Positions 21,214-39,256 of a stretch of 64,000 bases of DNA are shown here, piece after piece; position 1 is the first letter of the stretch, and each line of letters begins with the position of its first letter. The DNA is from an uncultured Opitutia bacterium (GTDB lineage Bacteria; Verrucomicrobiota; Verrucomicrobiia; Opitutales; UBA953). The notes beneath the pieces were generated by a model that did no database searches, was not told the DNA's origin, and saw nothing but the letters and a program-made list of their open reading frames with translations. Position numbers and translations under genes: made by a program. The stretch is taken from contig CAIMFJ010000005.1 in assembly GCA_903840355.1 (NCBI GenBank), positions 124,001-188,000 on the forward strand, written 5' to 3'.

Positions 21214-24200
21214 ATGCGTCTACCCCCCTGGGCCTTACTCCTTGCAGGCAGTCTGACTTTATGGGGTCAGGCTTTGCCAACTGGGCCTCAGGAGCACGTG
21301 CCCTTGAAGGATTATCATCAAGGTTTGGCACCCGCCGCTGCAGTTCGGGCGATGTCTTTACCGCCCGGTTTTAAAGTAAGTTTAGTGGCTGCCGAGCCTC
21401 AAGTAGTTCAGCCCATTGCGATGTGCTTTGATGAGCGGGGGCGCTTGTGGGTGGTGGAGGGGATGTCGTACCCCAATAAGCGGCCGGCGGGGCAGGGCAC
21501 CGATCGAATTCTGATTTTGGAAGATGTTAAAGGCGATGGTTCTTATGCTAAGTCCACGGTGTTCATGGAGGGTTTTAATTTAGTAAGTGGCATTGAAGTC
21601 GGCTACGGAGGGGTATGGATTGGGGCGGCTCCGGAATTTGTTTTTATTCCTAAAGACGCTCAAGATCGTCCTGGTAAACCCCAAGTGCTGCTGGACGGTT
21701 GGGGCTATCAAGATACTCACGAAACGTTAAATAGTTTTACGTGGGGCCCAGATGGTTGGCTTTACGGCTGTCACGGGGTCTTCACGTCTTCCAAAGTCGG
21801 TGTGCCCGGGACGCCTGAAAACCAACGGGTTAAAATTAATGCTGGGGTTTTTCGTTATCACCCCACCCGGCACGTGTTTGAAGTTTTCGCCGAAGGAACG
21901 AGCAACCCGTGGGGCCTAGATTTTAATGACCATGGCGAAATGTTTATCACCGCCTGTGTGATTCCGCACCTTTATCACATTCTGCCTGGGGCCCGGTATC
22001 AGCGCCAAGCGGGACAGCACTTTGAGCCGTTTACGTTTGATGATATTAAAACGATTGCCGACCACGCTCACTTTACGGGAGCGATTGTGCATCGCCCTGC
22101 TGAGCGTGGGATTGTGCAACCAGATAGCACGGATGAAGCAGGCGGTGGACATGCCCACTGTGGGCTTTGCATTTACCAAGGGGATAATTTTCCCGCGGCG
22201 TACCAAGGGCTTTTGATGTTTGGTAATTTGCACGGACACCGCGTATTGTGCGATCAGGTCGAAGCGTTAGGGAGTGGTTACGTGGGGCACCACGCCGGCG
22301 ACTTTTTGCGGAGTAATGACGCCTATTTTATTCCGGTCTCCCAACGCTTAGGACCCGATGGCGCGCTCTACGTGAGCGATTGGACGGACAAGCAGACTTG
22401 TCATAATAACAATACGGAAATTTGGGATCGGACGAACGGACGCATTTATCGCGTGAGTTACGGCACTGCGGTTTCCCGTCAGCAAGACCTGACGCGTTTG
22501 ACGGATACCTCGCTGATCCAAGTTTTATTAGACGATGGGAATGATTACTTCCGCCGCCAGGCACGTAAAGTGCTCGCCGAGCGTGCGGCGTCGCAGGCGC
22601 CGATGCTCGCGAGTGATACGACTCTGTTAGTCTCCGCATTGCGCGATAAAAAATCTTCGGCCCCGCGTCGTTTGCGTGCGCTGTGGGCACTGCAAGTCAC
22701 CGGACAAGCTACACCTGCTTTACTCGAGGAGTGTTTGCAAGATGCCGATTTTGCGGTGCGCACTTGGGGGGTGCGTTTATTGGCTCAGCAATACCCGGAA
22801 TTAAAGGCTAAGTTATTGGCCATGGCGGTGGAAGAGCCTTCGCCCGTTGTTCGACGTGAATTGGCTTCGGCTTTGGCTTATTTACCGTTCCAGGATCGGG
22901 CGGCCTTGGCGATGGCGTTGGTCCGTTTTGGCGAGGATGCGGCTGACCATAATATCCCTTTATTGCTTTGGTATGGCATTGAACCGGTCGTTGGGGCGGA
23001 TCCCGAAGTGGGACTCACCTTGGCCCGTCAATCCCGCCTTCCTAAGGTCACGGATTATATTTATCGGCGTTTAGCTGTCGAAGCGAAGGGGCGGACACAG
23101 ATGTTAAGCCTAGCGGCAACGACGGAGGATAGTTTGGTGAAGCAGCGCTTGGTGGAAGGAGTCGTCACCGCGTTGCGCCAAGGGGGAAGTTTTGTTGTGC
23201 CGCCTCAGTGGGATGCAATCGTCTCGCAATTGAAAGTTGGTGCGAATTCAGACTTATTGAGCCAAGTGCAAGAATTGGATGCCTTGGCGGGGAATCCAAC
23301 GAGTTTAGCTTTATTCCGTCAGCAGTTACTTCAGGAAGCGCAAACTTTAGGCCACCGTCAGCGGGCTTTGGCGGTGTTGGTTCAGGCACGTGATGTCGCG
23401 TCTGCAGACATCCTTCATCAGGTTTTAGAACAAAAGGGTTTAGTCAGTCCCTTGCGTCGCGCCGTGTTGCAGGCCTTGGCCGTTTTGGGCAATGAGGCAT
23501 CGGCGGATTTGGTTATCCGTTCTTTCCAGAATTTTTCGGCGGAAGAGGCCTCGGATGCTTTAGGAGTTCTCTTGATAAATCCTAACTCCGGATGGAAATT
23601 CTTGCAGGCGATTAAAAACGGACAGTTGCCACGCAGCGTGCTGAGTCCGGTGGCTTTACGTCAATTAAAGACGATGCAGGACCCTCGTCTGGACCAACTG
23701 CTCAATGAATTAGTTGGGGTGGTGAATCCATCGAAGGCTGATTTGCCTAAGCTCAAGGCCAAGTATGTGGAACTTTTAAAACCTGACGCGTTGCGGAAGG
23801 CGGACGTCAAAGCCGGTAAAGCTCTGTTTCAAACTACTTGTGGGCTTTGTCACCAACTCTTTGGCGAGGGCCCCGTGGTCGGCCCAGTTTTAACCGGTTC
23901 GAATCGGGCTAATCTAGATTACTTGTTGGAAAATGTTTTAGACCCAAATGCGGTGATTGGAAAAGACTATCAACTCAATGTCTTTAAATTGCAGAACGGG
24001 AATACGGTGGGCGGCATTCTGCAGTTAGAAGATACTGACGTTTACCATGTCGTCATGCCTGCAGGGGTGAAGGTGGATGTAAAGAAAGCGGAAGTCGCCC
24101 AACGTCAGGTATTGGCGGTGTCACTCATGCCTGAAGGGCTGTTTGATGCTTTAACTCCGACGCAAGTCATCAACCTCGTCGGCTATTTACAATCTCCCGA

Positions 24201-24690
24201 TGGCATTAAGCCTCCCGCCTTGGCATCAGGTAAGTCGGCAGTGTGGCGGGTGGAGGGTGTGTTGGAGGGGGAAGCGATGCAGGTCTTGGCCCAGACGGGC
24301 GGTAAAGCGGGCCATCAAGGGATGGGCGGCTTTAAAGATAGTCGGTGGAGTGGGGATGATCAGTTGTGGTGGAGTGGTGCTAAGGTGGGCGACGTGCTGA
24401 CGTTGGCACTGCCGATTAAGGAAAATGGCATTTACCAGTTAACCTTCGTGTGTACCAAGGCCCATGATTATGGGCGCTTCGCCCTTTCGATTGATGGGAA
24501 AGTAATCACCGACCAAGGCTTAGACCTTTATCATGCTAAGGGAGTGGTGACGACGGGAGAGCTGGATGGCGGTCGACATCCATTAACCGCGGGTGACCAT
24601 CGGCTGGAAATCAAAGTTTTGGCACCCAATCCGGCGGCAACACCGCTCAATATGTTCGGCCTAGATTATATTAAGGTCGAAAAGAAATAA
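21214..24690 (+). CDS. PVC-type dehydrogenase: beta-propeller + HEAT + cytochrome c + jelly-roll
   Basis: 1158 residues with a signal peptide (MRLPPWALLLAGSLTLWGQA). Residues about 45-420 form the PVC 'heme-binding dehydrogenase' propeller (PPGFKVSLVAAEPQVVQP, DERGRLWVVEGMSYP, GCHGVFTSS, GPDGALYVSDWTDKQTCH). Residues about 420-830 are HEAT-like helical repeats (FAVRTWGVRLLAQ, VVRRELASALAYL). A cytochrome c domain has C876-x-x-C879-H880 (CGLCHQLFGEG). The final 130 residues form a sugar-binding-like jelly-roll ending FGLDYIKVEKK, similar to the C-terminus of DUF2961 proteins. Likely a periplasmic sugar oxidase passing electrons to its heme. Nineteen bp upstream of a lactonase, which would hydrolyse the lactone product. 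Confidence 0.9.
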   Translation: MRLPPWALLLAGSLTLWGQALPTGPQEHVPLKDYHQGLAPAAAVRAMSLPPGFKVSLVAAEPQVVQPIAMCFDERGRLWVVEGMSYPNKRPAGQGTDRILILEDVKGDGSYAKSTVFMEGFNLVSGIEVGYGGVWIGAAPEFVFIPKDAQDRPGKPQVLLDGWGYQDTHETLNSFTWGPDGWLYGCHGVFTSSKVGVPGTPENQRVKINAGVFRYHPTRHVFEVFAEGTSNPWGLDFNDHGEMFITACVIPHLYHILPGARYQRQAGQHFEPFTFDDIKTIADHAHFTGAIVHRPAERGIVQPDSTDEAGGGHAHCGLCIYQGDNFPAAYQGLLMFGNLHGHRVLCDQVEALGSGYVGHHAGDFLRSNDAYFIPVSQRLGPDGALYVSDWTDKQTCHNNNTEIWDRTNGRIYRVSYGTAVSRQQDLTRLTDTSLIQVLLDDGNDYFRRQARKVLAERAASQAPMLASDTTLLVSALRDKKSSAPRRLRALWALQVTGQATPALLEECLQDADFAVRTWGVRLLAQQYPELKAKLLAMAVEEPSPVVRRELASALAYLPFQDRAALAMALVRFGEDAADHNIPLLLWYGIEPVVGADPEVGLTLARQSRLPKVTDYIYRRLAVEAKGRTQMLSLAATTEDSLVKQRLVEGVVTALRQGGSFVVPPQWDAIVSQLKVGANSDLLSQVQELDALAGNPTSLALFRQQLLQEAQTLGHRQRALAVLVQARDVASADILHQVLEQKGLVSPLRRAVLQALAVLGNEASADLVIRSFQNFSAEEASDALGVLLINPNSGWKFLQAIKNGQLPRSVLSPVALRQLKTMQDPRLDQLLNELVGVVNPSKADLPKLKAKYVELLKPDALRKADVKAGKALFQTTCGLCHQLFGEGPVVGPVLTGSNRANLDYLLENVLDPNAVIGKDYQLNVFKLQNGNTVGGILQLEDTDVYHVVMPAGVKVDVKKAEVAQRQVLAVSLMPEGLFDALTPTQVINLVGYLQSPDGIKPPALASGKSAVWRVEGVLEGEAMQVLAQTGGKAGHQGMGGFKDSRWSGDDQLWWSGAKVGDVLTLALPIKENGIYQLTFVCTKAHDYGRFALSIDGKVITDQGLDLYHAKGVVTTGELDGGRHPLTAGDHRLEIKVLAPNPAATPLNMFGLDYIKVEKK

Positions 24691-24709
24691 TCCGCTTACG
24701 GTTCTATTT

Positions 24710-25669
24710 ATGAAATTCCTCCCCATATTATTGACATCCTGGGCTCTGGTGGCAGGCGCTGCTCCGGTCGCTCCGCCAGCGATTGAAATTCAAGATCGAG
24801 CGCTTAAGTCACTCTTAGCTGAAGATGCTAAGGTTGAAAAAATTGCCACGGGTTTTGGGTGGGCCGAAGGACCCGTTTGGTGGCAAGGTCGATTGGTGTT
24901 TTCAGATGTGCCTAATAATACGGCGTATACTTGGAAGGAAGGGGATGCGAATGCCCAAGTCTTTCTCAAGCCCAGTGGTACTGATGAGCCTTCAGCGTTG
25001 CAAGGCTCAAATGGTTTAGCGGTGGATCGTGAAGGTCACTTAATACTATGTCAGCATGGGGCTCGACGGATTGCTCAGTTGCAAGCCGACGGTAAGTTTC
25101 GTCCGCTGGCTACGACCTATAACGGGCAGCGTTTTAGTAGTCCCAATGACCTTTGCATCGCCAAAGATGGTACGGTTTATTTTACCGACCCGCCTTATGG
25201 CTTGCCTCAAGGAGTGCAGCCCGAAACCCCATTTCACGGGGTGTATAAGCGCTCGTCGCAAGGCGAAGTCACCTTGGTGACGAAAGCTGTTAGGTGGCCT
25301 AATGGCATCGCGTTAAGTTTGGACGAGAAGTTTCTCTATCTAGCCGTGTCGGATAATGATAATCCCCGCATCGCTGCTTGTAATTTAGACGGTGCTAACC
25401 TGCACGATGTTTTCTTGATGGCGCCGCTTAAAAAGCCCGATCACCCTGGAGGTCCAGATGGGATGAAGTTAGATGCTCTAGGAAATATTTGGGCCACGGG
25501 TCCTGGTGGCGTGGTGATTTTAACTCCGGAGGGGAAGTATTTGGGGACCATCTTACTGCATCAACCAACGGCCAACTTGGCGTGGGGGGATGACGGTCAT
25601 ACGCTTTATATTACTTCGAACCACGATTTATTTAGAGTGAAAACGTTGGTGAAGGGGGCGGGTTTTTAG
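24710..25669 (+). CDS. Secreted SMP-30/gluconolactonase family protein
   Basis: 319 residues with a signal peptide (MKFLPILLTSWALVAGAAP). Six-bladed propeller lactonase: GWAEGPVWW with the metal-binding Glu, FSSPNDLCIAKDG with Asn, VSDNDN with the metal Asp, and GGPDGMKLDALGNIWATGPGG. It hydrolyses aldonolactones to aldonic acids; exported here, so it acts in the periplasm. The context supports this: directly after a propeller-cytochrome dehydrogenase (19 bp) and before a polyol-type dehydrogenase, an SDR and a GntP permease. The exact sugar is not known. Confidence 0.92.
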   Translation: MKFLPILLTSWALVAGAAPVAPPAIEIQDRALKSLLAEDAKVEKIATGFGWAEGPVWWQGRLVFSDVPNNTAYTWKEGDANAQVFLKPSGTDEPSALQGSNGLAVDREGHLILCQHGARRIAQLQADGKFRPLATTYNGQRFSSPNDLCIAKDGTVYFTDPPYGLPQGVQPETPFHGVYKRSSQGEVTLVTKAVRWPNGIALSLDEKFLYLAVSDNDNPRIAACNLDGANLHDVFLMAPLKKPDHPGGPDGMKLDALGNIWATGPGGVVILTPEGKYLGTILLHQPTANLAWGDDGHTLYITSNHDLFRVKTLVKGAGF

Positions 25670-25742
25670 GTCGATTTGCCCACGAGTAGGCTGCACGTAA
25701 GTTGGCTTGCTCGCGCCTGTTCCCTTTATCATACCTACTGCT

Positions 25743-26780
25743 GTGAAAGCTCTTCTGCTGACTGAATATAAAAAAATGTCTTTCGTCGAGATGCCCAGCC
25801 CTGTCTGTGGTCCCGCGGAAGTCTTGGTCCAGGTCAAGGCCTGTGGCATTTGCGGCTCTGATATCCATGGTTACGATGGATCCACGGGTCGGCGGATTCC
25901 GCCCTTGGTGATGGGCCATGAGGCCTCGGGTTTGATTGTCGGCGTAGGGGCTGACGTGAAGCGTTTTAAAGTGGGCGAACGGGTGACTTTTGACTCGACC
26001 GTTTTTTGCGGGGAGTGCGTGCATTGCCGTCGGGGCGATGTGAATCTCTGTGACCACCGTCAAGTGCTGGGCGTTTCCTGTGGCGACTACCGTCGTCACG
26101 GCGCTTTTGCCGAATTCGTCACTGTTCCTGAACGAATCTTACACCGTTTGCCGGATCATTTAGGTTATAACGAAGCTGCCATGATTGAGGCGGTATCGAT
26201 TGGCGTGCATGCGGTTCGCCTCACCCCTTGTCAGCCAGGCGACACCGCAGTGATTGTCGGCACGGGGATGATTGGCTTGTTAACGTTGCAGGCCGCCAAG
26301 ATTGCGGGGTTCCGCCAAATCATCGGCGTGGATACCGAAGATTCACGTTTGGAAGTCGCTCGCGAATTAGGGGCGACGCATGTCGTGAATCCTAAACAGC
26401 AAGACGTCACGGCGTTTGTCCAAGGGCTAACGCAAGGGCAGGGTGCGGATGCGGCTTTTGAATGTGTGGGTCTGAATGCGACGGTCCTCTCTGCGATTCA
26501 TGCAGTGCGTAAAGGTGGCACGGTGACTTTGGTGGGTAACCTTTCGCCCAAAACCGAATTGCCCTTGCAAGTGGTTGTGACGCGTCAGTTGCGGCTGCAA
26601 GGTTCGTGTGCCTCCGCGGGTGAAATCCCCCGTTGCATTGAACTACTCGCGAATGGCCAAATTAAGGTGGATAAGATCATCTCGGCCGTTTCGCCGCTGG
26701 AACAGGGGGCCGAATGGTTTGCTAAACTGTATGCGGGTGCTCCAGGGATGATGAAAGTCATTCTCAATCCTACGGTATAA
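25743..26780 (+). CDS. Zn-dependent medium-chain alcohol/polyol dehydrogenase
   Basis: 345 residues from the GTG at 25743; an ATG at 25707 gives 12 extra residues unlike the family start (VKALLLTEYKKMSF), so GTG is preferred. Catalytic zinc ligands: Cys37, His59 and Glu60 (CGSDIHGY, MGHEASG). Structural zinc cysteines: Cys89, 92, 95 and 103. A Rossmann segment (IVGTGMIGLLTLQAAK) binds NAD. It resembles L-iditol, galactitol and L-gulonate-type dehydrogenases, so it probably oxidises a sugar alcohol or sugar acid imported by the neighbouring GntP transporter. Cytosolic. The specific substrate is not determined. Confidence 0.9.
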   Translation: MKALLLTEYKKMSFVEMPSPVCGPAEVLVQVKACGICGSDIHGYDGSTGRRIPPLVMGHEASGLIVGVGADVKRFKVGERVTFDSTVFCGECVHCRRGDVNLCDHRQVLGVSCGDYRRHGAFAEFVTVPERILHRLPDHLGYNEAAMIEAVSIGVHAVRLTPCQPGDTAVIVGTGMIGLLTLQAAKIAGFRQIIGVDTEDSRLEVARELGATHVVNPKQQDVTAFVQGLTQGQGADAAFECVGLNATVLSAIHAVRKGGTVTLVGNLSPKTELPLQVVVTRQLRLQGSCASAGEIPRCIELLANGQIKVDKIISAVSPLEQGAEWFAKLYAGAPGMMKVILNPTV

Positions 26781-26784
26781 TCCT

Positions 26785-27579
26785 ATGGCCTTTTTTAACC
26801 TCCAAGGAAAAGTGGCCCTCGTGACCGGCACGAGCCGGGGCCTCGGTCAATACTTCGCCCGAGCGTTAGCACAAGCAGGGGCTGATATTGCGATGACCAG
26901 TCGCGACGTCGCCAAGCTGGCTCCGTTTCGCCAAGAGATTGAAGCCCTAGGTCGCAAGACCTGTGCGGTCGCCTTAGATGTCAGTAATCAGGAGAGTATT
27001 CGGCAGGCGATTGCGGCGGTCGAAGCCCAGATGGGTTCCATTGATATTTTAGTTAATAACGCCGGTTGTAATATCCGGAAGCCCGCCCTCGAGGTTTCGT
27101 GGGAAGATTGGAATACGATTTTAGATACTAATTTACGCGGCACCTTTTTCACTTCGCAGGCGGTGGCGCCTGGGATGATTAAGCGCGGCTATGGCCGGAT
27201 TATTAATGTCGGCTCGGTAACCTGTGTCGCTGGTTATGCCGGCCTCGCTCCTTATGGGGCAAGTCGTGGTGGGGTGAAGCAGTTGACGATGAGTTTAGCC
27301 GATGATTGGGGTCGCCATGGAGTGACCGTCAATTGTCTGGCCCCAGGTTGGTTTAAGACCGCCCAAAATGCGGTGCTCTATGAAAGTCGGGAGTGGGTGG
27401 AGTATCTTTGCGATCGCATTCCTTTAAAGCGTCCTGGTTCGCCTGACGACCTTGCGGGTCCGGTCGTCTTCTTGGCTTCAGAGGAAAGTCGCTATGTCAC
27501 CGGCCAAACTTTGTTAGTCGATGGTGGCATCAGCACAGGTGCTACGCGAGCCACGGTGACGCCGCCTAAACCTCGCTGA
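26785..27579 (+). CDS. Short-chain dehydrogenase, gluconate-5-dehydrogenase-like, Lys replaced by Arg
   Basis: 264 residues, cytosolic. Cofactor site TGTSRGLG (Gly15, Gly19, Gly21), NNAG, Ser144 and Tyr157. The usual YxxxK reads YGASR, so the catalytic Lys is Arg161. A nearby GGVKQLTMSLADDWGRHGVTVNCLAPGWFKT is otherwise typical of gluconate 5-dehydrogenase-like SDRs. Start 4 bp after the Zn-dehydrogenase and stop 2 bp before the GntP gene, so translation is tightly linked. Probably an oxidoreductase in the same sugar-acid path; activity with Arg is uncertain. Confidence 0.9.
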   Translation: MAFFNLQGKVALVTGTSRGLGQYFARALAQAGADIAMTSRDVAKLAPFRQEIEALGRKTCAVALDVSNQESIRQAIAAVEAQMGSIDILVNNAGCNIRKPALEVSWEDWNTILDTNLRGTFFTSQAVAPGMIKRGYGRIINVGSVTCVAGYAGLAPYGASRGGVKQLTMSLADDWGRHGVTVNCLAPGWFKTAQNAVLYESREWVEYLCDRIPLKRPGSPDDLAGPVVFLASEESRYVTGQTLLVDGGISTGATRATVTPPKPR

Positions 27580-27581
27580 GT

Positions 27582-28919
27582 ATGTTATCAGCGCTACTCG
27601 CGATTGGGATTTTGGTACTTTTAGTCACTTGGCTGAAACTAAATCCTTTCGTCGCCTTGTTGATCAGTTCCTTAGCGCTCGGTGGGTTGGTGATGTTTTC
27701 GACGACTTCAATCACGATGTCGGTGGTGTTGAAGTCGTTTCAAACGGGCTTTGGGGCGACGTTAGGAAGCACGGGCCCGATTATTATTCTCGGAGTAATT
27801 TTCGGAAAGTTTTTAGCGGAGTCAGGGGGAGCGGCCGTGTTAGCCCGAAAATTTATTCATACCCTCGGACCCAGTCGCATTGGCCTGTGTATTATTCTGC
27901 TGGCTTTATGCGTTGGGATGACGACGTGGTTTGCGGTAGGTCTGTTGCTCATTCTGCCCATCGTCATCACCTTGGCTAAGGAGACTGGGCAGCCTTTTCT
28001 TCGTCTGGTGTTACCGATGTTATCTTTCTTATCGGTTATGCACGGGCTTATGCCTCCCCATCCTGGCCCCGTGACGGCGATTGAGGCCCTGCATGCGGAT
28101 ATGGGTAAAGTGATTCTGTGGGCTTTGGTTTTAGGGATTCCTGTCGCCGCGATTGCCGGACCATTCTTTGCCCGGATGGCCGTTAAGCGTGTCCAAGTTG
28201 CCACGCCCGCCTATGAGCCTTCCGTTGCAACGGGGCAGGTGATGCCGTCGTTTGGCCTTACTTTATTTACGGTGCTATTACCCGTGGCTTTGTTGCTCAT
28301 GGGGACGGTGGTAGAATTTTTGAATGCCAGCGCGACTTCCTGGGGGCAGGTTTTAGCGTTTATTGGTCAACCCATTATGGCGCTGTTAATTTCGGTCTTG
28401 TTTGCGCTTTGGGCTTTTGGTCGACGTTGTGGACGCACGGCGCAAGAGATGTTGAAGTTCTCAGAGGCCAGTGTGGCGGGCGTGGGCATGACACTCGTCT
28501 TAGTGGGAGCGGGCGGCGGCTTTGCTTTAGTGATGAAGAATGTAGGGGTGGCGAGTGATTTGGCCAAAGTGGCGGCCAGTTTGGGCTTGCCGATGTTGCT
28601 TTACGGTTGGTTGGTGTCGGCGTTTGTTCGCGTTGCTACGGGATCCGCGACGGTGGCCATTACGGTGGCGGCTGGCTTTATCGCACCTGTTTTAGAACTC
28701 CATCCCGAGACCTCGCGTGAACTGATGGTGATTTCGATTGGATGCGGTTCACTCTTCTTGTCGCACCTCAACGATAGCGGCTTTTGGATGGTAAAAGAAT
28801 GTTTAGGATTATCCGTAGGGCAGACTTTACGGACCTGGACGATTACGGAGACGTTGATTGGTCTCTCGGGACTATCGATGGCTCTTTTAGCAGAGCGCGT
28901 TCTAATCTTATTACGCTGA
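27582..28919 (+). CDS. GntP-family sugar-acid permease
   Basis: 445 residues, many hydrophobic segments (about 12-14), consistent with inner-membrane proton symport of gluconate or other sugar acids. GntP landmarks: LSVMHGLMPPHPGP, LSHLNDSGFWMVKE near the C-terminus, and GSATVAITVAAGF. It is the last gene of the 21.2-28.9 kb run; with the lactonase and dehydrogenases upstream, this is a coherent oxidise-outside, import, oxidise-inside route. It ends 3 bp from the convergent NosR-ApbE gene. Identification is firm; the substrate is inferred. Confidence 0.92.
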   Translation: MLSALLAIGILVLLVTWLKLNPFVALLISSLALGGLVMFSTTSITMSVVLKSFQTGFGATLGSTGPIIILGVIFGKFLAESGGAAVLARKFIHTLGPSRIGLCIILLALCVGMTTWFAVGLLLILPIVITLAKETGQPFLRLVLPMLSFLSVMHGLMPPHPGPVTAIEALHADMGKVILWALVLGIPVAAIAGPFFARMAVKRVQVATPAYEPSVATGQVMPSFGLTLFTVLLPVALLLMGTVVEFLNASATSWGQVLAFIGQPIMALLISVLFALWAFGRRCGRTAQEMLKFSEASVAGVGMTLVLVGAGGGFALVMKNVGVASDLAKVAASLGLPMLLYGWLVSAFVRVATGSATVAITVAAGFIAPVLELHPETSRELMVISIGCGSLFLSHLNDSGFWMVKECLGLSVGQTLRTWTITETLIGLSGLSMALLAERVLILLR

Positions 28920-28922
28920 GCC

Positions 28923-31535
28923 CTATTGCGGGGCTTTGCTTGATTTCCAAATCTCGCCTTTAGCATTAATCAACCACACGGCTAAGCCTTCGCGTTCAGC
29001 GATGATTTTAGCATCGTCCCATCCCGCCGTCATGCAGGCCGTCGCCCAACCCGTGGCGATGAAGCAATGACGGTCAAAGGCACAGCACATTTCTAGCGAG
29101 GAAGTCACCGGCCACCCTGTTTGGGGTGAAATGATGTGCGACACGGGTTTACCGGCGGCGATACGTTTCTCTCGGTATAAACCCGAAGGCGAGATAGACT
29201 GGTCCTTGAGCATGACCGTAGCAATCATGCGATGAGTGTTGAACGGGTCTTCAATCCCCACGGGCCAAGTGCCGGAAGCTAGGAGCTCGCCGCCGACTTC
29301 AATTAAGTAGTCGTGGTAGTTATGCTTTAATAAAATAGCTTCGATGTGATCTTCGGCATAACCTTGGAGCACGGAACCGAGATCGAGGGAAAGTTTGGGG
29401 TGCGCTTTGCGCAGGGTGAGGTTGGTCGTATCGAGGGTGACTTTATCCCAGCCGACTTGAGGGAGGATTTTATCTAAGTCCGCTTGCGTCGGGTCGGGTA
29501 AATTTTGTCCAGCCGGGCCGTAACTCCAAGCCGACACCAATGGTGCCACCGAAACATCGTAGGTGCCGTGGGTGGCTTGCGTGAGTTTTTGGGTGAAGCT
29601 GAGCACCTCGGCTAATTCAGCGGTAATCTTGAAAGGTGCGGTGGATTCAAAGGCATTAAACTGACTCGTGACCGAATTTTTCCGCCAGTGCGACAGGGTG
29701 TATTCGATGCGGTTAACCTCGGTGGCGATTTCCCGATGGAGGGCTTCTTGGTCGGACACTTTCCCGCGAATTTTTACCGTCCAACTTGTTCCAAAACCCA
29801 CTCCGTGCATTTCAGCAATAGGCTGTTCGGTCCCAGTGGCTTGGGCCGTCACTAGGTTGACGTTTTCAGCCGGGTGTAATTTTAGAATCACGAAGCCCGC
29901 CATTAAAACCCCCGCGACAAAGTTATCTTTGAGCGCCCACGTTTCGTGTTTATTATTTGTACGAACGAGGTGAAAAAGAGATCCGGTTGGGCAGCCGTAT
30001 TTACAATAGGCTTGGGGGATGAAGAGCGAGAAACCCAAGCCAACCAGCGCTAAAAGGGCTGGAATCGTCCAAATTTTTGGGAGCGACCAAGCGTCGAAGG
30101 GTTCAAAATGGTTGAGCGTAATCGTGGGCCAAAGGAGGGTGGTTAGAAAAGCGACGGCTAAGGTGAGCCCAGGGATAAAACGGAGGATTTGATGCCAGCG
30201 TGGGCCGACGCGAATTTTCCAAGGGGAGAGTTTGCCCAAAATTTCTTGGGCTGCTCCGTGGGGGCAAGCGTGGTGACAGTAGGTTTGCCGGCGGGCGCTC
30301 CACGGGATGACTAAGGCGATGACCCCTAATGCTACGAGGGCTAAACTTTGGGTCCAGGGTAGGCCATGTCGGGTCCAGCCAGCGAAAAGGGAGAGCGATA
30401 ATAGTTGTCCTAACCACAGACCTAATCCGCCGATGAGCAAAACCTGCCAAGCGAGCCGCACCCGACGATCGCCGTGCAAGGGCGTGAAGGTCATGATTAA
30501 AGCTCCAAGGATAAAAAGCCAAAGCCCGATGGCTTTGTAGGTGGCCATTTGCTGTTCCTGGGCGGCGATTTGGTGGGTCTGGTCGTCGGCAAAGCGACGC
30601 TTGATGCCTTCCGCCACCGCATAACTCGTGAAGGTCGCCCCGGCGACCCCTTCGAGTCGTTCTTTTTCAAAATTCAACGTGGACCACTCGAGTGCATTCC
30701 AATGCGTGAGCGATTGGAGGTAAGTGTCATCCACGATGACCCGGTTGACATAGTCGGGGGTGTCGTAGGATTGACGGAGGGTGATTTTTTTAAGTTTAAT
30801 ACCATCAGGCTCCATGGCGATGAGCGACTCGGTGGGGCCGGCATAACCATTGATTTCATCGGCCGAGGGCGAGGTGCGTACGAGGTAGCCGAGCAGGGTG
30901 CCGTTGGCGGAGCGCACCAGGTTCCACCCGAGGCGCGGCGTGTTGGGTTCAAAGCCATGCGCGTCGGGAAAGCCCGCTTCTTGAATCTCCTTGAGGGTGA
31001 GCGGACTCGGAAAGCGTAAGGAGGCATAATGCCCAGAAAGTCGTTTCTGAATTGATTCGGCGATGGAGTAGGCTGTCAGCGTGGAGCCTGCATAGCCTTG
31101 GAGTTTAGGCGTAGGTTCGGATGCCGGGCGCCACTGCTTGAGGCTGCGTTCGAAGTCGCCATTATTACGCAGCGTGTCGACGTGGTCGGGTGTGTCTTCG
31201 CTCGAGATGATACGCGTGCCGACGATGCGATCATGGGTGTCGAGCGCTACGAGTACATTGCTAGGTCCAGAGTAGCCGATGATTTTGTCGGCATCGGGGG
31301 AGGTGGTCACGAAGTGCCCCATCGGATTCCCGAACTGATCTTCGACTAATAATTCTTGCTTGGTGCCTAAGTGGATTTTCGCGGCCTCGGGAAAAAAGCC
31401 CCGAACTTCTTCCAGCGAGAGTTCCCGTAAAGGGGTATCGGCAGGGGGGGTGGCGTGTTGCAGTAAATAGGCTGCCAAGCCTAGGGCCAGTAACCGCCAT
31501 CCGCGTATGAACCATCCTTGGAGGGCGGGGGGCAT
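28923..31535 (-). CDS. NosR-like polytopic flavoprotein fused to ApbE flavin transferase
   Basis: 870 residues in one frame. Two FMN-bind domains (about 60-165 and 190-310) each carry a flavinylation motif: AGSTLT (Thr154) and AGATFT (Thr303). A block of membrane helices (about 330-555) holds two NosR-type Cys motifs, CHHACP (C420, C424) and CKYGCP (C511, C515). Residues 571-868 are an ApbE domain: FGTSWTV, LSHWRKNS, DLGSVLQGYA, VGGELLASGTWPVGIEDP and ATGWATACMTAG. ApbE covalently attaches FMN from FAD to Thr of FMN-bind domains, so the protein may flavinylate itself. Likely a membrane electron-transfer protein; partner unknown. No nos genes nearby. Alone between GntP and an FAD oxidoreductase. 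Confidence 0.9.
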   Translation of the reverse strand: MPPALQGWFIRGWRLLALGLAAYLLQHATPPADTPLRELSLEEVRGFFPEAAKIHLGTKQELLVEDQFGNPMGHFVTTSPDADKIIGYSGPSNVLVALDTHDRIVGTRIISSEDTPDHVDTLRNNGDFERSLKQWRPASEPTPKLQGYAGSTLTAYSIAESIQKRLSGHYASLRFPSPLTLKEIQEAGFPDAHGFEPNTPRLGWNLVRSANGTLLGYLVRTSPSADEINGYAGPTESLIAMEPDGIKLKKITLRQSYDTPDYVNRVIVDDTYLQSLTHWNALEWSTLNFEKERLEGVAGATFTSYAVAEGIKRRFADDQTHQIAAQEQQMATYKAIGLWLFILGALIMTFTPLHGDRRVRLAWQVLLIGGLGLWLGQLLSLSLFAGWTRHGLPWTQSLALVALGVIALVIPWSARRQTYCHHACPHGAAQEILGKLSPWKIRVGPRWHQILRFIPGLTLAVAFLTTLLWPTITLNHFEPFDAWSLPKIWTIPALLALVGLGFSLFIPQAYCKYGCPTGSLFHLVRTNNKHETWALKDNFVAGVLMAGFVILKLHPAENVNLVTAQATGTEQPIAEMHGVGFGTSWTVKIRGKVSDQEALHREIATEVNRIEYTLSHWRKNSVTSQFNAFESTAPFKITAELAEVLSFTQKLTQATHGTYDVSVAPLVSAWSYGPAGQNLPDPTQADLDKILPQVGWDKVTLDTTNLTLRKAHPKLSLDLGSVLQGYAEDHIEAILLKHNYHDYLIEVGGELLASGTWPVGIEDPFNTHRMIATVMLKDQSISPSGLYREKRIAAGKPVSHIISPQTGWPVTSSLEMCCAFDRHCFIATGWATACMTAGWDDAKIIAEREGLAVWLINAKGEIWKSSKAPQ

Positions 31536-31538
31536 GCG

Positions 31539-33866
31539 TTACTTAATCGGCAAGAGTTGTACGGCGTCGATGTGGACTAAGCCATTCGCTCCTTCAGCTT
31601 TGAAGAGGATGCTACTCTTGCCTGCAGGAAAATCAAAGATGCCTAACGCATGACTCCCGTTTTCGGTGCTCTCCTTTTGATTTAAGGTGAAGTGGATGAC
31701 TTCAGCTTTAGGGCGCAGGAGGTCCAATTGCGTATTGCTGGCACGGTTGGCGTGGCCGGTCCAATAGACGATCAACTGATACTTTTGTGCTTCGGGAATA
31801 CTAAAAATATATTCGGCATGGTTGGCTCCAGGTTGGGCGTAGTGGTAGCCATCGCCGAGGTGGGCGAGGGATTCGCCTGCCGTCCATTTGCCAGTTAAAA
31901 CGGCTTGGGTATCATCTAGGACGAGTCCAGGTAATTTGGCTAAGCTAGAGGCTCCTTCGGGGCTCAGGGCGTGTTTTTCTTTGAGCACATCGAGGTTCAT
32001 GCGTCCCACGGGAAGCTTTTTGAAATCATCGATCTTTTCATCGAGGAAGAGGTCACTGGTTAGTGACGTCCGACGCATTCGGCCGGGTTGTTCCATTAAG
32101 TTAATGAGTGCGGGCAGGTGGTGTTCGTAGACGCCACGTGGCGTGGTTTGGCCTTTAACGGCTAAGTAGGCGGCACGGCCCACCACTTCACCCATCATGC
32201 CGATGGTGCGCATGACACGGACGGTGCCGAGGGCTTCATGGGAGACGCTGATGTCGCGACCTGCCATGAAGAGGTTCTCAATATTCTTAGAGTAAAAGCA
32301 ACGGTAGGGCAAAGGGTAGCCATTGAGGCGGTCCACATGTTTGCCGAACTGAGCCCGCGAGATGAAAGGGTTATCCGGGAATTTTTGGGCGTATTGTTCG
32401 CGGGCGTAGTGCAAGTCGATATCCCAAGTCGTGGGCACAAAACCATCGGGGAAATCTTTGCGTGCGATGATATCCGCTTGGGTGAGTACAATGTCACCCG
32501 TGAGCAGGCGGGATTCCCGAGGGCCACCGACGAAGGAGACCCATTTCAGGGTAGCGTTCTGATACTTCGCTTGGTCTTTGCCGAGCTTGAGGGCCGAAAA
32601 GGCACCATAGACTGCACGTAAATTCCAATCGCGAATGAGTTCTAAATCGTTGATCGGATCTTTATTAAAACCCGATTCCCAGAACCATTCTCCCTTCATG
32701 AAAGGCTTTTCATCAATGGTGGACTTAGATTTTACTAAGGTAGGGAAGTCGCCGACTTCGAGTGGTAGCGCCCATGGCGTGGGGTTCCAAGGTTGGGCTT
32801 CCGCCTCGTTTTGGTAATACCACATATTGGACATGCCCATGCGGTTATTTTTTTCGACCGTGTAGTCGGCACCCGCGTAAGCCCCGAGGTGGCCATGGCC
32901 CGTGCAGTCCGCAAAAAGTTTGCCCCGAATCACTTTTTGTTTCCCCGTGCGGACTTCCAAGACGATGACTTTGCTGATGCGATGTCCGTTCATTTCGACA
33001 CCCGTGGCGTAGTGTTGGAGAAAGAGGCTAAGCGTCGGTTCAGCACGACAGACTTTTTCTTTTAAATCATCGGCAAAACTTTCAGGTTTGCCCGGACTAT
33101 CAGGGGCACGATCGGCAATTTCTTCAATAATTTCGCCGAGGTGAGGGTATTTGCCACGCAACGTGCCACCCATGGCCCAGACGCCGATTTCGGAACTCCC
33201 ATTGCCGCCGAGGACGGGGCGATCTTGGATGAGGGCTACTTTGAGCGATTGGCGGGCGGCGGACAGGGCCGCGCCGAGACCACCGTAACCACCACCCACG
33301 ACAACTAGATCAAACTCGCCGAGATCCTCCGGGCCTTCGGGGTTATGGAGTTGTTGACGAAGTTTGCTGAGAGCGGGGCCTTCCGGGGGTGTGAAGTTCG
33401 GGTCGTTGCTTAAAAGGATGGCGTCCACGCGACCATCAAACCCCGTTTGATCTTCGAGGGAGATTTTATGGCTGCCAGCGGAGAGGTTGAGCTTACCGCC
33501 GCTTTGCCAATGCCAGGTTGCACCCTCGGTCCCAAATTCGGTTTCAAGCGCTTGGTCTTCAATGCGGACATGAAAACGTCCTGGCTTACCAGGTACATTC
33601 CAAGGAGCCACCCAGTCTTTAGTGCGTACCCACACTTGATAGGTGCCAGCGTCGGAGATGGCGAAAGTACTTTGGGCGGATTCTACTGGATGTCCGAGAC
33701 CATGGGCAATCAGGTAGGGTGAGCCGACCAGATTGGTGAAGGCCGTATCCACTTTCCAGCCTCCGAGTTTTTCGAACGATTCGGCTTCGATGAGAATCGG
33801 ATTGCTCGCCGCGTAACCCGTGAGGCTCAGGAGGGTGAAAGTCAGGGGCAGAAGGGCGCGGAACAT
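31539..33866 (-). CDS. Secreted FAD-dependent oxidoreductase with N-terminal golvesin/CBM-like domain
   Basis: 775 residues with a signal peptide. Residues about 23-155 are a beta-sandwich module (ILIEAESFEKLGG, TYQVWVRTKDW, LSAGSHKISLEDQ, VDAILLS), as in carbohydrate-binding or golvesin-like domains. FAD_oxidored domain from about residue 184: VVVGGGYGGLGAAL (GGGYGG at 191-196) and GNGSSEIGVWAMGG. A final module (about 675-775, GESLAHLGDGYHYAQPGANHAEYIF) ends the chain. These enzymes are common in PVC polysaccharide or polyol loci; the substrate is unknown. Export with bound FAD suggests Tat transport, but no twin-Arg is visible in this leader. Confidence 0.87.
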   Translation of the reverse strand: MFRALLPLTFTLLSLTGYAASNPILIEAESFEKLGGWKVDTAFTNLVGSPYLIAHGLGHPVESAQSTFAISDAGTYQVWVRTKDWVAPWNVPGKPGRFHVRIEDQALETEFGTEGATWHWQSGGKLNLSAGSHKISLEDQTGFDGRVDAILLSNDPNFTPPEGPALSKLRQQLHNPEGPEDLGEFDLVVVGGGYGGLGAALSAARQSLKVALIQDRPVLGGNGSSEIGVWAMGGTLRGKYPHLGEIIEEIADRAPDSPGKPESFADDLKEKVCRAEPTLSLFLQHYATGVEMNGHRISKVIVLEVRTGKQKVIRGKLFADCTGHGHLGAYAGADYTVEKNNRMGMSNMWYYQNEAEAQPWNPTPWALPLEVGDFPTLVKSKSTIDEKPFMKGEWFWESGFNKDPINDLELIRDWNLRAVYGAFSALKLGKDQAKYQNATLKWVSFVGGPRESRLLTGDIVLTQADIIARKDFPDGFVPTTWDIDLHYAREQYAQKFPDNPFISRAQFGKHVDRLNGYPLPYRCFYSKNIENLFMAGRDISVSHEALGTVRVMRTIGMMGEVVGRAAYLAVKGQTTPRGVYEHHLPALINLMEQPGRMRRTSLTSDLFLDEKIDDFKKLPVGRMNLDVLKEKHALSPEGASSLAKLPGLVLDDTQAVLTGKWTAGESLAHLGDGYHYAQPGANHAEYIFSIPEAQKYQLIVYWTGHANRASNTQLDLLRPKAEVIHFTLNQKESTENGSHALGIFDFPAGKSSILFKAEGANGLVHIDAVQLLPIK

Positions 33867-34809: not shown

Positions 34810-35892
34810 TTACAGGCTTACTAACTCGATGATTTCGAGTTGGTGACCTTGGAGACCTACGACTTTAGGCGTGCTGTTGGTCAACAAGCGTAACTTCGTA
34901 ATGCCTAAATCAGAAAGGATTTGGGCACCCATGCCGTAATCACGGAGGCCTTTGGATGGATGCTGAGTCGACGTAATTCCTAAAACGCTATTCAGCCCAC
35001 TATCTGGCAAACGCAGGTAAACTAGGACACCACAAGTGGCTTGGGAGATGTGCTGCAGGGCTAGATTGAGCGAGTTTTCACCGCCCTTAAAGGTGTCATC
35101 AATAAGGTTTTCAACGTGTACGCGGGTGAGTACTGGTTGGCCGCTTTTGACGTTGCCGCGCACTAAGGCCAAGTGACGAGTCTCGTCTAACTTGGAACGA
35201 TAGAGGTGAAGTTGAAATTCACCGTAGGCAGTCGAGACGGTCGAAACTTTTTCTAATTCTACTAAACGTTCCCGTTCGCGGCGGTATTCAATGAGCGAAG
35301 CGATGCTGCAGATCTTGAGTTGGTGCGTTTGGGCAAACTGAAGTAGTTCAGGCAGGCGGGCCATCGTGCCGTCTGAGCTCATGATTTCGCAGATAACGCC
35401 CGCGGGTTGAAGTCCGGCAAGGTTTGTGAGGTCGATAGCCGCTTCGGTGTGGCCGGCGCGACGGAGGACCCCGCCTCGTTTGGCGATTAGGGGGAAGACG
35501 TGGCCAGGTTGGACTAGGTCAGTGGGGCGGGCACGTGGGTCGGCGAGGATGTTCAGGGTGCGAGCTCGATCGGCGGCACTGATGCCGGTGGTGATGCCTT
35601 GGGCAGCATCGACGCTAACGGTGAAATTAGTCGTGAGGGCCTCGCGATTGCGTTGCACCATGACATCGAGCGAAAGCTGTTGCGCACGTTCTTCGGACAG
35701 CGGTGCACAAATTAGCCCCCGACCATGGGTGGCCATGAAGTTAACTTGGGCGGCGGTGATGCATTCCGCGGCACAGACCAAGTCGCCTTCATTTTCCCGA
35801 TCCGCGTCATCGGTGACTAAAACTATTTTTCCGGCTCGAATATCCGCCACTACGGATTCAATGGAATCAAAAGGGTAGTGCGAAGATGACAT
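34810..35892 (-). CDS. ribB: 3,4-dihydroxy-2-butanone-4-phosphate synthase fused to degenerate GTP cyclohydrolase II-like domain
   Basis: 360 residues from the ATG at 35892; the 35952 start adds a non-family stretch. The N-terminal half is an intact DHBP synthase: DDADRENEGDL (28-38), MATHGRGLICAPL and RRAGHTEAAIDL (144-155). It makes the four-carbon precursor of riboflavin. The C-terminal half (about 215-360) keeps the GCHII fold markers (TRVHVEN.., LRDYGMGAQIL) but lacks the zinc cysteines of active RibA: the region around 255-278 has no Cys and the first expected Cys aligns with Asn262. This fits the RibBX arrangement described for RibB with a non-catalytic partner domain. A separate RibA would be expected elsewhere. 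Confidence 0.9.
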   Translation of the reverse strand: MSSSHYPFDSIESVVADIRAGKIVLVTDDADRENEGDLVCAAECITAAQVNFMATHGRGLICAPLSEERAQQLSLDVMVQRNREALTTNFTVSVDAAQGITTGISAADRARTLNILADPRARPTDLVQPGHVFPLIAKRGGVLRRAGHTEAAIDLTNLAGLQPAGVICEIMSSDGTMARLPELLQFAQTHQLKICSIASLIEYRRERERLVELEKVSTVSTAYGEFQLHLYRSKLDETRHLALVRGNVKSGQPVLTRVHVENLIDDTFKGGENSLNLALQHISQATCGVLVYLRLPDSGLNSVLGITSTQHPSKGLRDYGMGAQILSDLGITKLRLLTNSTPKVVGLQGHQLEIIELVSL

Positions 35893-35976
35893 AGCGAATG
35901 GAGGCAGAGATAAAAGGACCGAGGCGTTTAGATAGCCCAAGCCCTTCCGCACTGTCGAGCCTCGTCTTGCTAGGCT

Positions 35977-36498
35977 TTATTTGGTGTCCGTCGCGGCGGG
36001 CGTTTTGGGGTCGTCGGTCTTAGTCTTATCCCCGAAAGGAAAAGGCTTGGTAGGCATTTTTGCTGCTGCTTTAGGAGCGTTATCTTTCGCTTTGGCTTTC
36101 AAGTTATCTTCGATGGCGTCGGCGATTTTATCGATGGTATCCTTCTTGAGGGTGGAATCATTTTTAGCAATCGCCGCACGTAAAGCTTTACGTAATTCTT
36201 CGGCGAGACCTTGGCCTTCGGTGCGCAGGTCTTTCTTTTCATCGGCTGAGGCGTATTGCAGGCGACTCCGGAAATCTAGGAGTTTGGCACGGGCGGCTTT
36301 GACGTTTTCGTCGGTATTGGATTTCAGGTAAGCCGCCTTAAATTTCTCGATTTCTTCTTTAGTCACGCCGTCTACTTCGGGAATCTGCGGCACGGCGTTT
36401 AGCCCCGGACGCTTTTTAGCCGGAGCATCAGAAGTATCGGCGGCGTGGGCACTGACAATGAGGCCAAGGAAGGAGAGGGTGAGGAGGAACTTTTTCAT
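35977..36498 (-). CDS. Exported helical protein, paralogous cluster member 1
   Basis: 173 residues with a signal peptide (MKKFLLTLSFLGLIVSAHAA). The mature part is one helical unit: VDGVTKEEIEKFKAAYL, ASADEKKDL, then LRAAIAKNDSTLKKDTIDKIADAIE, with a Lys/Pro-rich tail. The same unit is present twice in the neighbour at 36516-37367 and once in 37462-37938. It follows the 36516 gene by 17 bp, so the two are likely co-transcribed. No known domain or function; charged, low-complexity, no Cys. It precedes the convergent-free end of the cluster at ribB. Confidence 0.75.
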   Translation of the reverse strand: MKKFLLTLSFLGLIVSAHAADTSDAPAKKRPGLNAVPQIPEVDGVTKEEIEKFKAAYLKSNTDENVKAARAKLLDFRSRLQYASADEKKDLRTEGQGLAEELRKALRAAIAKNDSTLKKDTIDKIADAIEDNLKAKAKDNAPKAAAKMPTKPFPFGDKTKTDDPKTPAATDTK

Positions 36499-36515
36499 AT
36501 TATAAATGATGAGGG

Positions 36516-37367
36516 TTATTTGCGGGTTCGCATCTTGGCTTCAATCGCTTCGCCAATCTTCGTGATGACTTCGGGGGCTAGCGTGGGGTCGTTTTTGGCG
36601 ATCGCACTTTTAGTTTTTTGGCGCACGGCGTCGATGGCGGCTTCGAACTCGCCCCGCATGTCATTGCGTTCTTGCGGGGTGTAAAATTGGGTACGTTGAG
36701 TCAGTTCTTGCATATGTTGACGTGCCGCTTGCAATTCAGGGTCGCGAAAAGATTTCAGTAAAGCGGTGCGATATTTCGCGAGATCTTCGGCACTAACGCC
36801 CTCGACGCTTTCGGGCAGGGCAAACCCTCCACGGTTGATGGTAGGAGCCTGTTTAGTGGCACTGGGGTCGCGCGGTTTAACAGGCGTATCGGTGGTGCTG
36901 GCCGTCTTTTCGCTCTCGGTTTTGAGCTTCGAGTTCGCCGTTGTCGCGGTCGCTTTTGCGCGGTTACGGATTTTATCCTCAAGGGCGTCGGCAAACTTAT
37001 CGGCCTGTTCCTTGGTAATACTAGTATCTGCTTTAACTAAAGAAGCGACGAGGGCCTGGTGCATTTTTTCAAAAGCACTTTCGAAGTCATTTTTCATGCC
37101 CTTCTTGTCGTCGGCACTCGCGAACTCAAACTGACTGCGTAGCTCTTGCAGGTGTTGCCGGGCGGCGACGAAGGTATCGTCTTGAACGGCTTTAACGGCG
37201 GCGCGCCGGATTTTGGTAAGGTCTTCGGTGCTGAGCCCCTCGACTTTATTCGGCAGGTAATTCCCTGAACGATTGGCGGGGGTGGCAGGCGCTTCCGCGG
37301 AGTCCGCACCTTGGGAGAGGGGGCTGAAGGCAAGAAGCACCCAGAGGCAGGGGTAGGTAAGGCGCAT
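36516..37367 (-). CDS. Exported helical protein with internal duplication, cluster member 2
   Basis: 283 residues with a signal peptide. Two related units, about 42-137 and 188-281, each read V.G.S.EDL.K.R, then a D...AARQH.QEL segment, A/TP-DDK/QER, and a final [ASV]xxKxDxTxxxxxxxKxxxAxE..x pattern. A Lys/Thr/Pro-rich linker lies between (about 138-187). This pattern shows an internal duplication and kinship with the genes at 35977 and 37462. No enzyme motif is seen. Possible structural or chaperone-like (Spy/CpxP-like) envelope role is speculation. It lies just below a terminator at 37419-37442, so it needs its own promoter. Confidence 0.75.
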   Translation of the reverse strand: MRLTYPCLWVLLAFSPLSQGADSAEAPATPANRSGNYLPNKVEGLSTEDLTKIRRAAVKAVQDDTFVAARQHLQELRSQFEFASADDKKGMKNDFESAFEKMHQALVASLVKADTSITKEQADKFADALEDKIRNRAKATATTANSKLKTESEKTASTTDTPVKPRDPSATKQAPTINRGGFALPESVEGVSAEDLAKYRTALLKSFRDPELQAARQHMQELTQRTQFYTPQERNDMRGEFEAAIDAVRQKTKSAIAKNDPTLAPEVITKIGEAIEAKMRTRK

Positions 37368-37418
37368 GAGAGTATTACAGGAGAAACAGCCGAAAGTTCG
37401 AGTGCTTTAGTAAAAAAA

Positions 37419-37442
37419 AAGACCCCCGAGGTCGGGGGTCTT
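37419..37442 (-). terminator. Rho-independent terminator for cluster gene 37462
   Basis: Minus strand: stem AAGACCCCCGA with its partner TCGGGGGTCTT, followed by nine T (complement of the A-run at 37412-37420). It starts about 20 bp past the stop of the gene at 37462, separating it from the 36516 gene. Confidence 0.9.
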
Positions 37443-37461
37443 GGTTGGCTAAGTGAATAGC

Positions 37462-37938
37462 TTATTTAGCTGCAGGAGCAGGAGCGTCGGCAGGAGGAGC
37501 GTCCTTGCCTTTGCCACCCTTGCCGCCCTTACCACCACGATTCTTCATCGCTTCGTCGATCTTCTTCACGACGTCAGCGAGGGTGGGGTCTTTCTTGATG
37601 ATGGCAGCGTTCGTGGCTTCACGGACAGCAGCACGGGCTTTGCCAGCTTCTTCGGTGGCAGCCTTCTTGGCGTCGTCATCTTTAGCTTCTTTGACCTTAG
37701 CTTGAGCTTCTTGAGCTTTTTCAACGGCTGCTTTAACAGCAGGGTCGTTTTGGGCTTCCTTGCGTGCGTCGTTGAACTTCTTGAACTCTTCTTCGGTTAC
37801 ACCGGGAGGAGCGCGGAAGCCGCCTTTGCGACCTTCGCCCTTAGGAGCGTCGGGAGCAGGGGCACCAGGAGCAGGAGCGTCAGCTGCAAACAGGCCAGCG
37901 GAGAGCAAGACTGCGAGGAGGGATAATTTGAGTTTCAT
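37462..37938 (-). CDS. Exported Ala/Lys-rich helical protein, cluster member 3
   Basis: 158 residues with a signal peptide (MKLKLSLLAVLLSAGLFAA). A Pro/Ala/Gly linker precedes GVTEEEFKKFNDARKEAQNDPAVKAA, a long Ala/Lys/Glu helix, and ATNAAIIKKDPTLADVVKKIDEAMKN, the same unit as its neighbours, followed by a Gly-Lys tail (GGKGGKGGKGK). It has its own terminator and a plausible -10 box upstream. Composition (Lys/Ala/Glu) resembles abundant small periplasmic proteins. Function unknown. Confidence 0.75.
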   Translation of the reverse strand: MKLKLSLLAVLLSAGLFAADAPAPGAPAPDAPKGEGRKGGFRAPPGVTEEEFKKFNDARKEAQNDPAVKAAVEKAQEAQAKVKEAKDDDAKKAATEEAGKARAAVREATNAAIIKKDPTLADVVKKIDEAMKNRGGKGGKGGKGKDAPPADAPAPAAK

Positions 37939-37960
37939 AGGTTGTGTGTGGGGAACATTG

Positions 37961-37966
37961 AGTATA
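37961..37966 (-). promoter_or_regulatory. Possible -10 box for cluster gene 37462
   Basis: TATACT on the minus strand, 23 bp above the ATG at 37938, within an AT-rich 128-bp intergenic stretch (37939-38066). No good -35 hexamer at 17 bp is seen, so this is a tentative promoter call. Confidence 0.35.
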
Positions 37967-38066
37967 ACACTTATATTAGCTTATAGTTGCACTTTTTAAA
38001 CGAATTAAATCATTATCTATCAATTACTTAGGGAATATATGATTAAAAATACGTTTAAAATCCTGC

Positions 38067-38621
38067 CTATTTTGCCTTAGGAATTGCCTTCGAGTCGGTG
38101 GAATCAGGCTTTAATTCTGCAAGCGCATCGCGGACGGCGGCGGTCCCGAAGTTTAGAATTTCTGTGATATCAGAAAGTTTTTCGGTCCGGGTAGCATCAT
38201 CCATTTTTCCCCACTGCGAAGCGATGGAGATGAAGGTGTCTTCACGAGTTTTCCATTCCTGACGCGTTCGGCAATACTCGATGGCTCGCTTGACTAAATC
38301 TTCGGAGTATGCCGATCGCATTTGATCCATGTTTTCACCGAAGTTTTTCAGTAAGTCATGATAGATTTCCGTGGGCGCAGGTTCGTCGGGGTAAACGTTC
38401 TTATCGGGGTCAAGGTTGAGTTTGGAGGAAGAGCGAATCGGGCCTGCTCCGATAGACTTACGCCAAGAAACTTTCACGAGTTTGTTTTTGGCAGCGTTTA
38501 CGGGTGTCGTGCTAGGGGCGGTGTGGCGTGCCCACCAAATAAAACCGAAACCGAGGCTGAAAAATAAAAACAGCCACGCCAAGAAGGGTGGCCGGAGTTT
38601 GGAATCGGAATCGGATGGCAT
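38067..38621 (-). CDS. Membrane-anchored helical protein, cluster member 4
   Basis: 184 residues from the ATG at 38621; the 38651 start overlaps the stop of the upstream gene and adds a Gly/Ser leader, so the internal start is preferred. One transmembrane segment (about 15-31, WLFLFFSLGFGFIWWA), then a charged helical domain with YHDLLKNFGENMDQMRSAYSEDL and DATRTEKLSDITEILNF, weakly like its neighbours' helix pairs. No catalytic motif. It lies 32 bp below the 38654 gene. Confidence 0.7.
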   Translation of the reverse strand: MPSDSDSKLRPPFLAWLFLFFSLGFGFIWWARHTAPSTTPVNAAKNKLVKVSWRKSIGAGPIRSSSKLNLDPDKNVYPDEPAPTEIYHDLLKNFGENMDQMRSAYSEDLVKRAIEYCRTRQEWKTREDTFISIASQWGKMDDATRTEKLSDITEILNFGTAAVRDALAELKPDSTDSKAIPKAK

Positions 38622-38653
38622 ACTGGAAAGGCTGCCACCGGAGTGGCCCAAGC

Positions 38654-39226: not shown

Positions 39227-39256
39227 ATGAATTATAAAAATGTGAATGTCTGAGCC

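Follow-up and report, generated by a model that had tools for sequence, protein, structure and literature searches.

Flavinylated electron carriers are widespread, and we know of no redox partner for most NapH-like systems.

As described by Meheust et al. 2021 (PMC8238504), the gene clusters of NapH-like flavinylated systems encode a PF12801 core with an N-terminal FMN_bind domain, depend on ApbE and are linked to an extracytosolic oxidoreductase. PceC/RdhC, from reductive dehalogenase operons, combines an exocytoplasmic FMN_bind domain containing an acceptor threonine with a membrane module carrying two CX3CP motifs, and has no C-terminal ferredoxin domain (PMC5928378). In the kinetoplastid fumarate reductase, ApbE is fused to the protein that it flavinylates (PMC12052999), which therefore sets a precedent for flavinylation in cis.

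The window analyzed here, a stretch of 64,000 nucleotides from an uncultured Opitutia bacterium of lake origin, encodes flavinylation targets, a membrane core and an ApbE domain in a single protein, next to a secreted FAD enzyme. The features are as follows.

28923..31535, minus strand: 870-aa fused protein with an N-terminal helix, FMN_bind 1 (T154), FMN_bind 2 (T303), a NosR/PceC/NapH-like membrane core with two CxxxCP motifs, and ApbE (about aa 573-870), delineated by Pfam, hydropathy and a structure model
31074..31088, minus strand: first flavinylation motif GSTLT (G150-T154, codons 150-154), acceptor Thr154
30627..30641, minus strand: second flavinylation motif GATFT (G299-T303, codons 299-303), acceptor Thr303
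30261..30278, minus strand: first CxxxCP motif (codons 420-425, C420/C424), predicted cytoplasmic side
29988..30005, minus strand: second CxxxCP motif (codons 511-516, C511/C515), predicted cytoplasmic side
29052..29054, minus strand: codon 828, ACG (Thr), at the site of the catalytic and Mg-binding Asp of ApbE (FmnB Asp301, V. cholerae ApbE Asp285)
31539..33866, minus strand: 775-aa secreted FAD_oxidored (PF12831) enzyme with a beta-rich N-terminal domain and a C-terminal Golvesin_C domain, the proposed redox partner (Pfam, locus comparison)

The fused gene runs from the ATG at 31535 to the stop at 28923 on the minus strand, with 870 codons and 0 internal stops. The original prediction, that one uninterrupted frame carries both the flavinylation targets and the flavin transferase, is borne out, and the strand, which it did not give, is now assigned. 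Pfam identifies two FMN_bind stretches (PF04205, E 5e-13), two Fer4_5 stretches (E 9e-10, 38.9 bits against a cut-off of 22) and an ApbE domain at aa 581-853 (PF02424, E 9e-60, 202.8 bits against a cut-off of 25.6). Both FMN_bind domains contain a motif of the [ST]GA[ST]x[ST] type with an acceptor threonine, GSTLT having a serine for the motif alanine; the GSTLT and GATFT motifs and the numbering of Thr154 and Thr303 had been predicted correctly. The FMN_bind domains share 30% sequence identity with each other, so that the pair is probably the product of a duplication. The protein has eight cysteines, only four of which (C420/C424 and C511/C515) lie outside the ApbE domain, and the ferredoxin motif CxxCxxCxxxC is absent from its 870 residues. 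An alignment of 45 proteins from Verrucomicrobiota and Planctomycetota shows no variation at T152, T154, T301 or any of these four cysteines. No other FMN_bind domain is encoded in the host genome; thus, the genome has no NqrC and no RnfG, and the protein is the sole target of this type.

The fused protein had been described as NosR-like. This holds for the FMN_bind domain and the CxxxCP membrane core, but the C-terminal domain of NosR with its two [4Fe-4S] clusters is missing, the NCBIfam match to NosR is weak (22.8 bits against a family cut-off of 1000), and neither nosZ nor other nos genes occur among the neighbors scanned with Pfam. The layout is instead that of PceC/RdhC, an FMN_bind domain and a membrane core with two CX3CP motifs and no ferredoxin domain, extended by a second FMN_bind domain and a C-terminal ApbE. 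It also differs from PceC/RdhC in its constant neighbor, which is the FAD_oxidored enzyme and not the dehalogenase rdhA. With a Fer4_5 core of several transmembrane helices and FMN_bind in one protein, it resembles the NapH-like systems of the PF12801 type, except that ApbE is in the same chain. By its anatomy, it therefore falls within the broad NapH-like group as a PceC/RdhC-like protein with an additional FMN domain and a transferase in the same chain. The kinetoplastid fumarate reductase likewise has ApbE fused to its own target, but is a soluble eukaryotic protein with an N-terminal ApbE and no membrane core. PF12831 is absent as a partner family from the main text of Meheust et al. 2021 (PMC8238504). 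A literature search for the domain order or for the PF12831 pairing returned no description, which is weak evidence as supplements and most subscription papers lay outside the search.

Hydropathy indicates six membrane segments C-terminal to the FMN domains; with the N-terminal helix seen in the AlphaFold model of the fused protein (mean pLDDT 88.6), the total is seven. As this number is odd, the FMN domains and ApbE are predicted to share one side of the membrane. By analogy with PceC, for which the location of the FMN domain was determined by experiment (PMC5928378), this side is predicted to be the outside. The N-terminus would then be inside and both FMN_bind domains outside, followed by six more helices with the CxxxCP pairs facing the cytoplasm; after the last helix, a short flexible linker would lead to an external ApbE facing both target threonines. 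Residues 557-569, between the last helix and ApbE, are the least certain stretch of the model, which is consistent with a flexible tether. The ApbE part matches the ApbE structures of V. cholerae and E. coli (6nxi/4xgv) with a TM-score of 0.86 by target. Thus, a single polypeptide with targets, NosR-like core and ApbE is supported, as is the placement of ApbE and the FMN domains on the same side.

The partner of the carrier had been given as unknown; the gene at 31539-33866 now corrects this, as a conserved, co-occurring secreted FAD oxidoreductase. It lies upstream in the same direction, its stop ending 3 nt before the ATG of the fused gene, and its product has a signal-like N-terminus. Among named-genome loci with enough upstream DNA, the FAD gene is the immediate upstream neighbor, in the same orientation, in 37 of 45 loci with the fused form, 7 of 10 with the split form (membrane protein and ApbE as separate genes), and 6 of 13 without a nearby ApbE. 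Of the 19 genomes in which the two genes are not neighbors, or in which the contig ends too early to tell, 16 encode a clear orthologue (at least 50% identical) at another site. No clear orthologue was found in the remaining three, the fused Verrucomicrobiales genomes L130-L132, so the pairing is not absolute. Of 372 genomes in the order, 61 have the membrane protein, 58 the FAD orthologue and 57 both (57/61 and 57/58); in the four exceptions, the contig is broken at that place or the genome reaches a completeness of only about 60%. For the part of the order outside the genus, the corresponding numbers are 24, 21 and 21 (21/24 and 21/21). In 387 genomes of the phylum, the FAD gene accompanies all 17 membrane proteins against a background of 41/387 (hypergeometric p about 8e-19, shared ancestry ignored), and in several genomes of the distant family f29 the two genes are adjacent again. 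The dependence runs one way only: in 24 of the sampled genomes of the phylum, many of them from other classes, a relative of the FAD enzyme occurs and no membrane partner was detected. The secreted FAD enzyme is thus probably the electron partner of the membrane protein. FAD_oxidored relatives in the phylum for which no membrane carrier was detected (G397, G408 and others) mostly lack the C-terminal domain.

The center of the FAD enzyme is a common FAD-binding fold that matches Thi4, GGR, MnmG and E3 about equally well, and the flanking regions match xanthan lyase and carbohydrate-binding (CBM)-like modules. We therefore rejected any assignment of the substrate from the structure, as many unlike enzymes of the same fold match about equally. 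Insecticidal Cry proteins, which ranked high in Foldseek, were also rejected as relatives (rmsd 26-28, TM-score under 0.15 over the whole length); we attribute their ranking to the beta-sandwich modules and not to the enzyme.

An orthologous sulfatase (47-96% identity) is encoded upstream of the FAD gene, mostly directly, at 10 loci in three families (f2, f19 and f14). In most genus members tested, sulfatase orthologues lie at other genome sites, and a sulfatase as general partner was rejected, its genus orthologues not being adjacent and two of 12 genomes lacking one. In f2-type genomes (L062-L078), the genes for the FAD oxidoreductase, carrier and ApbE are flanked on both sides by sulfatases, which belong to two different orthologous groups (e.g. 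L070:2616-4157 and L070:9464-11521).

The reading to which we incline, with some confidence, is a dedicated relay that has a built-in flavin transferase acting in cis and connects the membrane quinone pool with the periplasmic FAD enzyme, although the evidence for the relay fits flavinylation in cis or in trans alike. With exported FAD as its substrate, ApbE would place FMN on Thr154 and Thr303. The FAD enzyme, held to carbohydrate by its sugar-binding-like flanks, would most likely oxidize a (formerly sulfated) sugar, and electrons would pass from FAD through the two FMNs and the membrane core to quinone and on to an oxidase. A cytochrome oxidase is encoded in the host genome, and because of this, the flank matches and the sulfatase neighbors taken together, we favor the oxidation of a glycan-derived sugar with entry of electrons into the quinone pool. 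Electrons could also flow the other way, from quinol outward via the core and the FMNs to the FAD enzyme, which would then reduce its substrate; flow of this kind has been proposed for NosR, PceC and flavinylated fumarate-reductase-like enzymes. Most of the known NapH-like flavinylated systems do serve reductases (PMC8238504), PceC is proposed to pass electrons from menaquinol to PceA (PMC5928378), and the FAD fold has similarities to reductases as well, flavocytochrome c3 and geranylgeranyl reductase among them. Nevertheless, the sugar-binding-like domains and sulfatase neighbors suit sugar oxidation, and the cytochrome oxidase points the same way; while none of this is decisive, outward flow appears unlikely, albeit a serious contender. 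With the inward, sugar-oxidizing relay as the preferred reading, a broader proposal can be put forward only tentatively: that sulfatase, secreted FAD_oxidored enzyme, twin-FMN carrier and ApbE form an undescribed periplasmic glycan-oxidizing respiratory module of Verrucomicrobiota and Planctomycetota, in which carrier and transferase are fused and self-flavinylating, the transferase of this species having a threonine for the catalytic aspartate. Genome evidence alone suffices to name a partner, which is a secreted and conserved FAD enzyme, and direct tests of its substrate and of the direction in which electrons flow thereby come within reach. A built-in transferase would also represent a compact system for producing covalently flavinylated domains.

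The ApbE domain, originally predicted to be complete, is so in sequence and fold but not in its active site. Counting from the catalytic histidine, residue 828 is equivalent to FmnB Asp301, which contacts both Mg ions at the FAD diphosphate; changing the Mg-binding residues of FmnB to alanine, Asp301 included, greatly reduced or abolished activity (PMC8906456). This aspartate is on the list of conserved ApbE residues (PMC12052999). The fused protein has a threonine here, whose ACG codon is more than one base away from any Asp codon, and the catalytic Asp-Ser-His set and the Mg ligands are to that extent incomplete; the other fused members keep the aspartate. It is therefore conceivable that the protein is a working carrier whose ApbE is decaying or inactive in this species, with FMN attached poorly, otherwise, or not at all. 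Such decay would fit the presence of Asp in all 31 other genus members aligned and the roughly 30 further window positions that depart from the consensus of at least 90% of the genus. It would also fit the only other ApbE of the genome (L002, G000:C4:510480-511208), which has no signal peptide at its N-terminus and carries Lys, Arg, Glu and Met in place of the active-site Ser, His, Asp and Thr. Against these points, Ser784, His800 and Thr832 of the active site are retained, and five split ApbEs from another family of the order (f14) have a serine at position 828. The ApbE and NosR parts have diverged similarly from a near relative (56% and 59%), no stop or frameshift interrupts the frame, and both acceptor threonines are conserved. 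On balance, a decaying or inactive ApbE in this species is the less likely reading, albeit a serious one. From the sequences, self-flavinylation is likely for the family and uncertain for this species, in which either Thr828 is tolerated or flavinylation is poor. With Thr828, the species offers a natural test case of which residues are essential to ApbE.

The domain order, initially thought uncommon, needs to be put to scale: the fusion is the rule in the genus and occurs in at least two phyla. It was found in about 37 genomes of the genus, as well as in Chthoniobacteraceae, Verrucomicrobiales and Planctomycetota, and the full-length fused homologues across the genus share 55-60% identity, far beyond chance. 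In the scan of named genomes, the relatives come from freshwater Opitutia, then from Spartobacteria/Chthoniobacteraceae, Verrucomicrobiales and Planctomycetota; no relative was found among viral contigs. Other families of the order have the split form as neighboring genes, the membrane protein first and ApbE immediately downstream, and both forms have the final helix of the membrane core. In families f2 and f19, the split ApbE starts in most cases with a lipoprotein-like signal (...LLGC or ...LFGC, with a lipobox-like cysteine), which the fused forms lack. An assembly or sequencing artefact, or a functionless chance loss of a stop codon, can be dismissed: five split genomes from another family do have both genes in the same frame with a single stop codon between them, so that a single base change could join the genes, but the lipobox-like signal has been removed in the fused forms and a length of about 860-875 aa is kept in dozens of independently assembled genomes from at least two phyla. 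The observed gene order and sequences suggest how the fusion would have come about: the starting point would be a gene for a lipoprotein ApbE directly following that of the membrane protein, and this ApbE would have lost its start and lipoprotein signal and become joined to the final core helix. In a tree of the membrane part, three changes between fused and split forms are required, two of them forced by strongly supported branches; these counts cannot tell gain from loss. The fused form accordingly comprises one large clade spanning two phyla and at least one separate case (L133, Planctomycetales). An apparent TGA within the ORF of three genus members proved to be the terminal stop, and one genome (L027) has a TAA where the first FMN domain ends.

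Convergent with the cassette, an operon on the plus strand (21214-28919) encodes a large DUF7133/HEAT/cytochrome c protein, a gluconolactonase-like protein, a zinc alcohol dehydrogenase, an SDR and a GntP permease, and looks like one for periplasmic sugar oxidation and aldonate uptake. This gluconate-type operon was rejected as part of the system, since it is conserved beside the cassette in only part of the genus. Two genes from the flavin system, a ribBA-like gene of riboflavin biosynthesis lies on the minus strand (34810-35952); no homologue was seen in the corresponding place in the relatives examined. A run of six small proteins of 158-283 aa is also encoded on the minus strand (35977-39892); at least some of them are mutually similar and have signal-like N-termini. 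One of them has a weak match to Metal_resist, below the cut-off. Small genes like these adjoin the cassette in many members of the genus.
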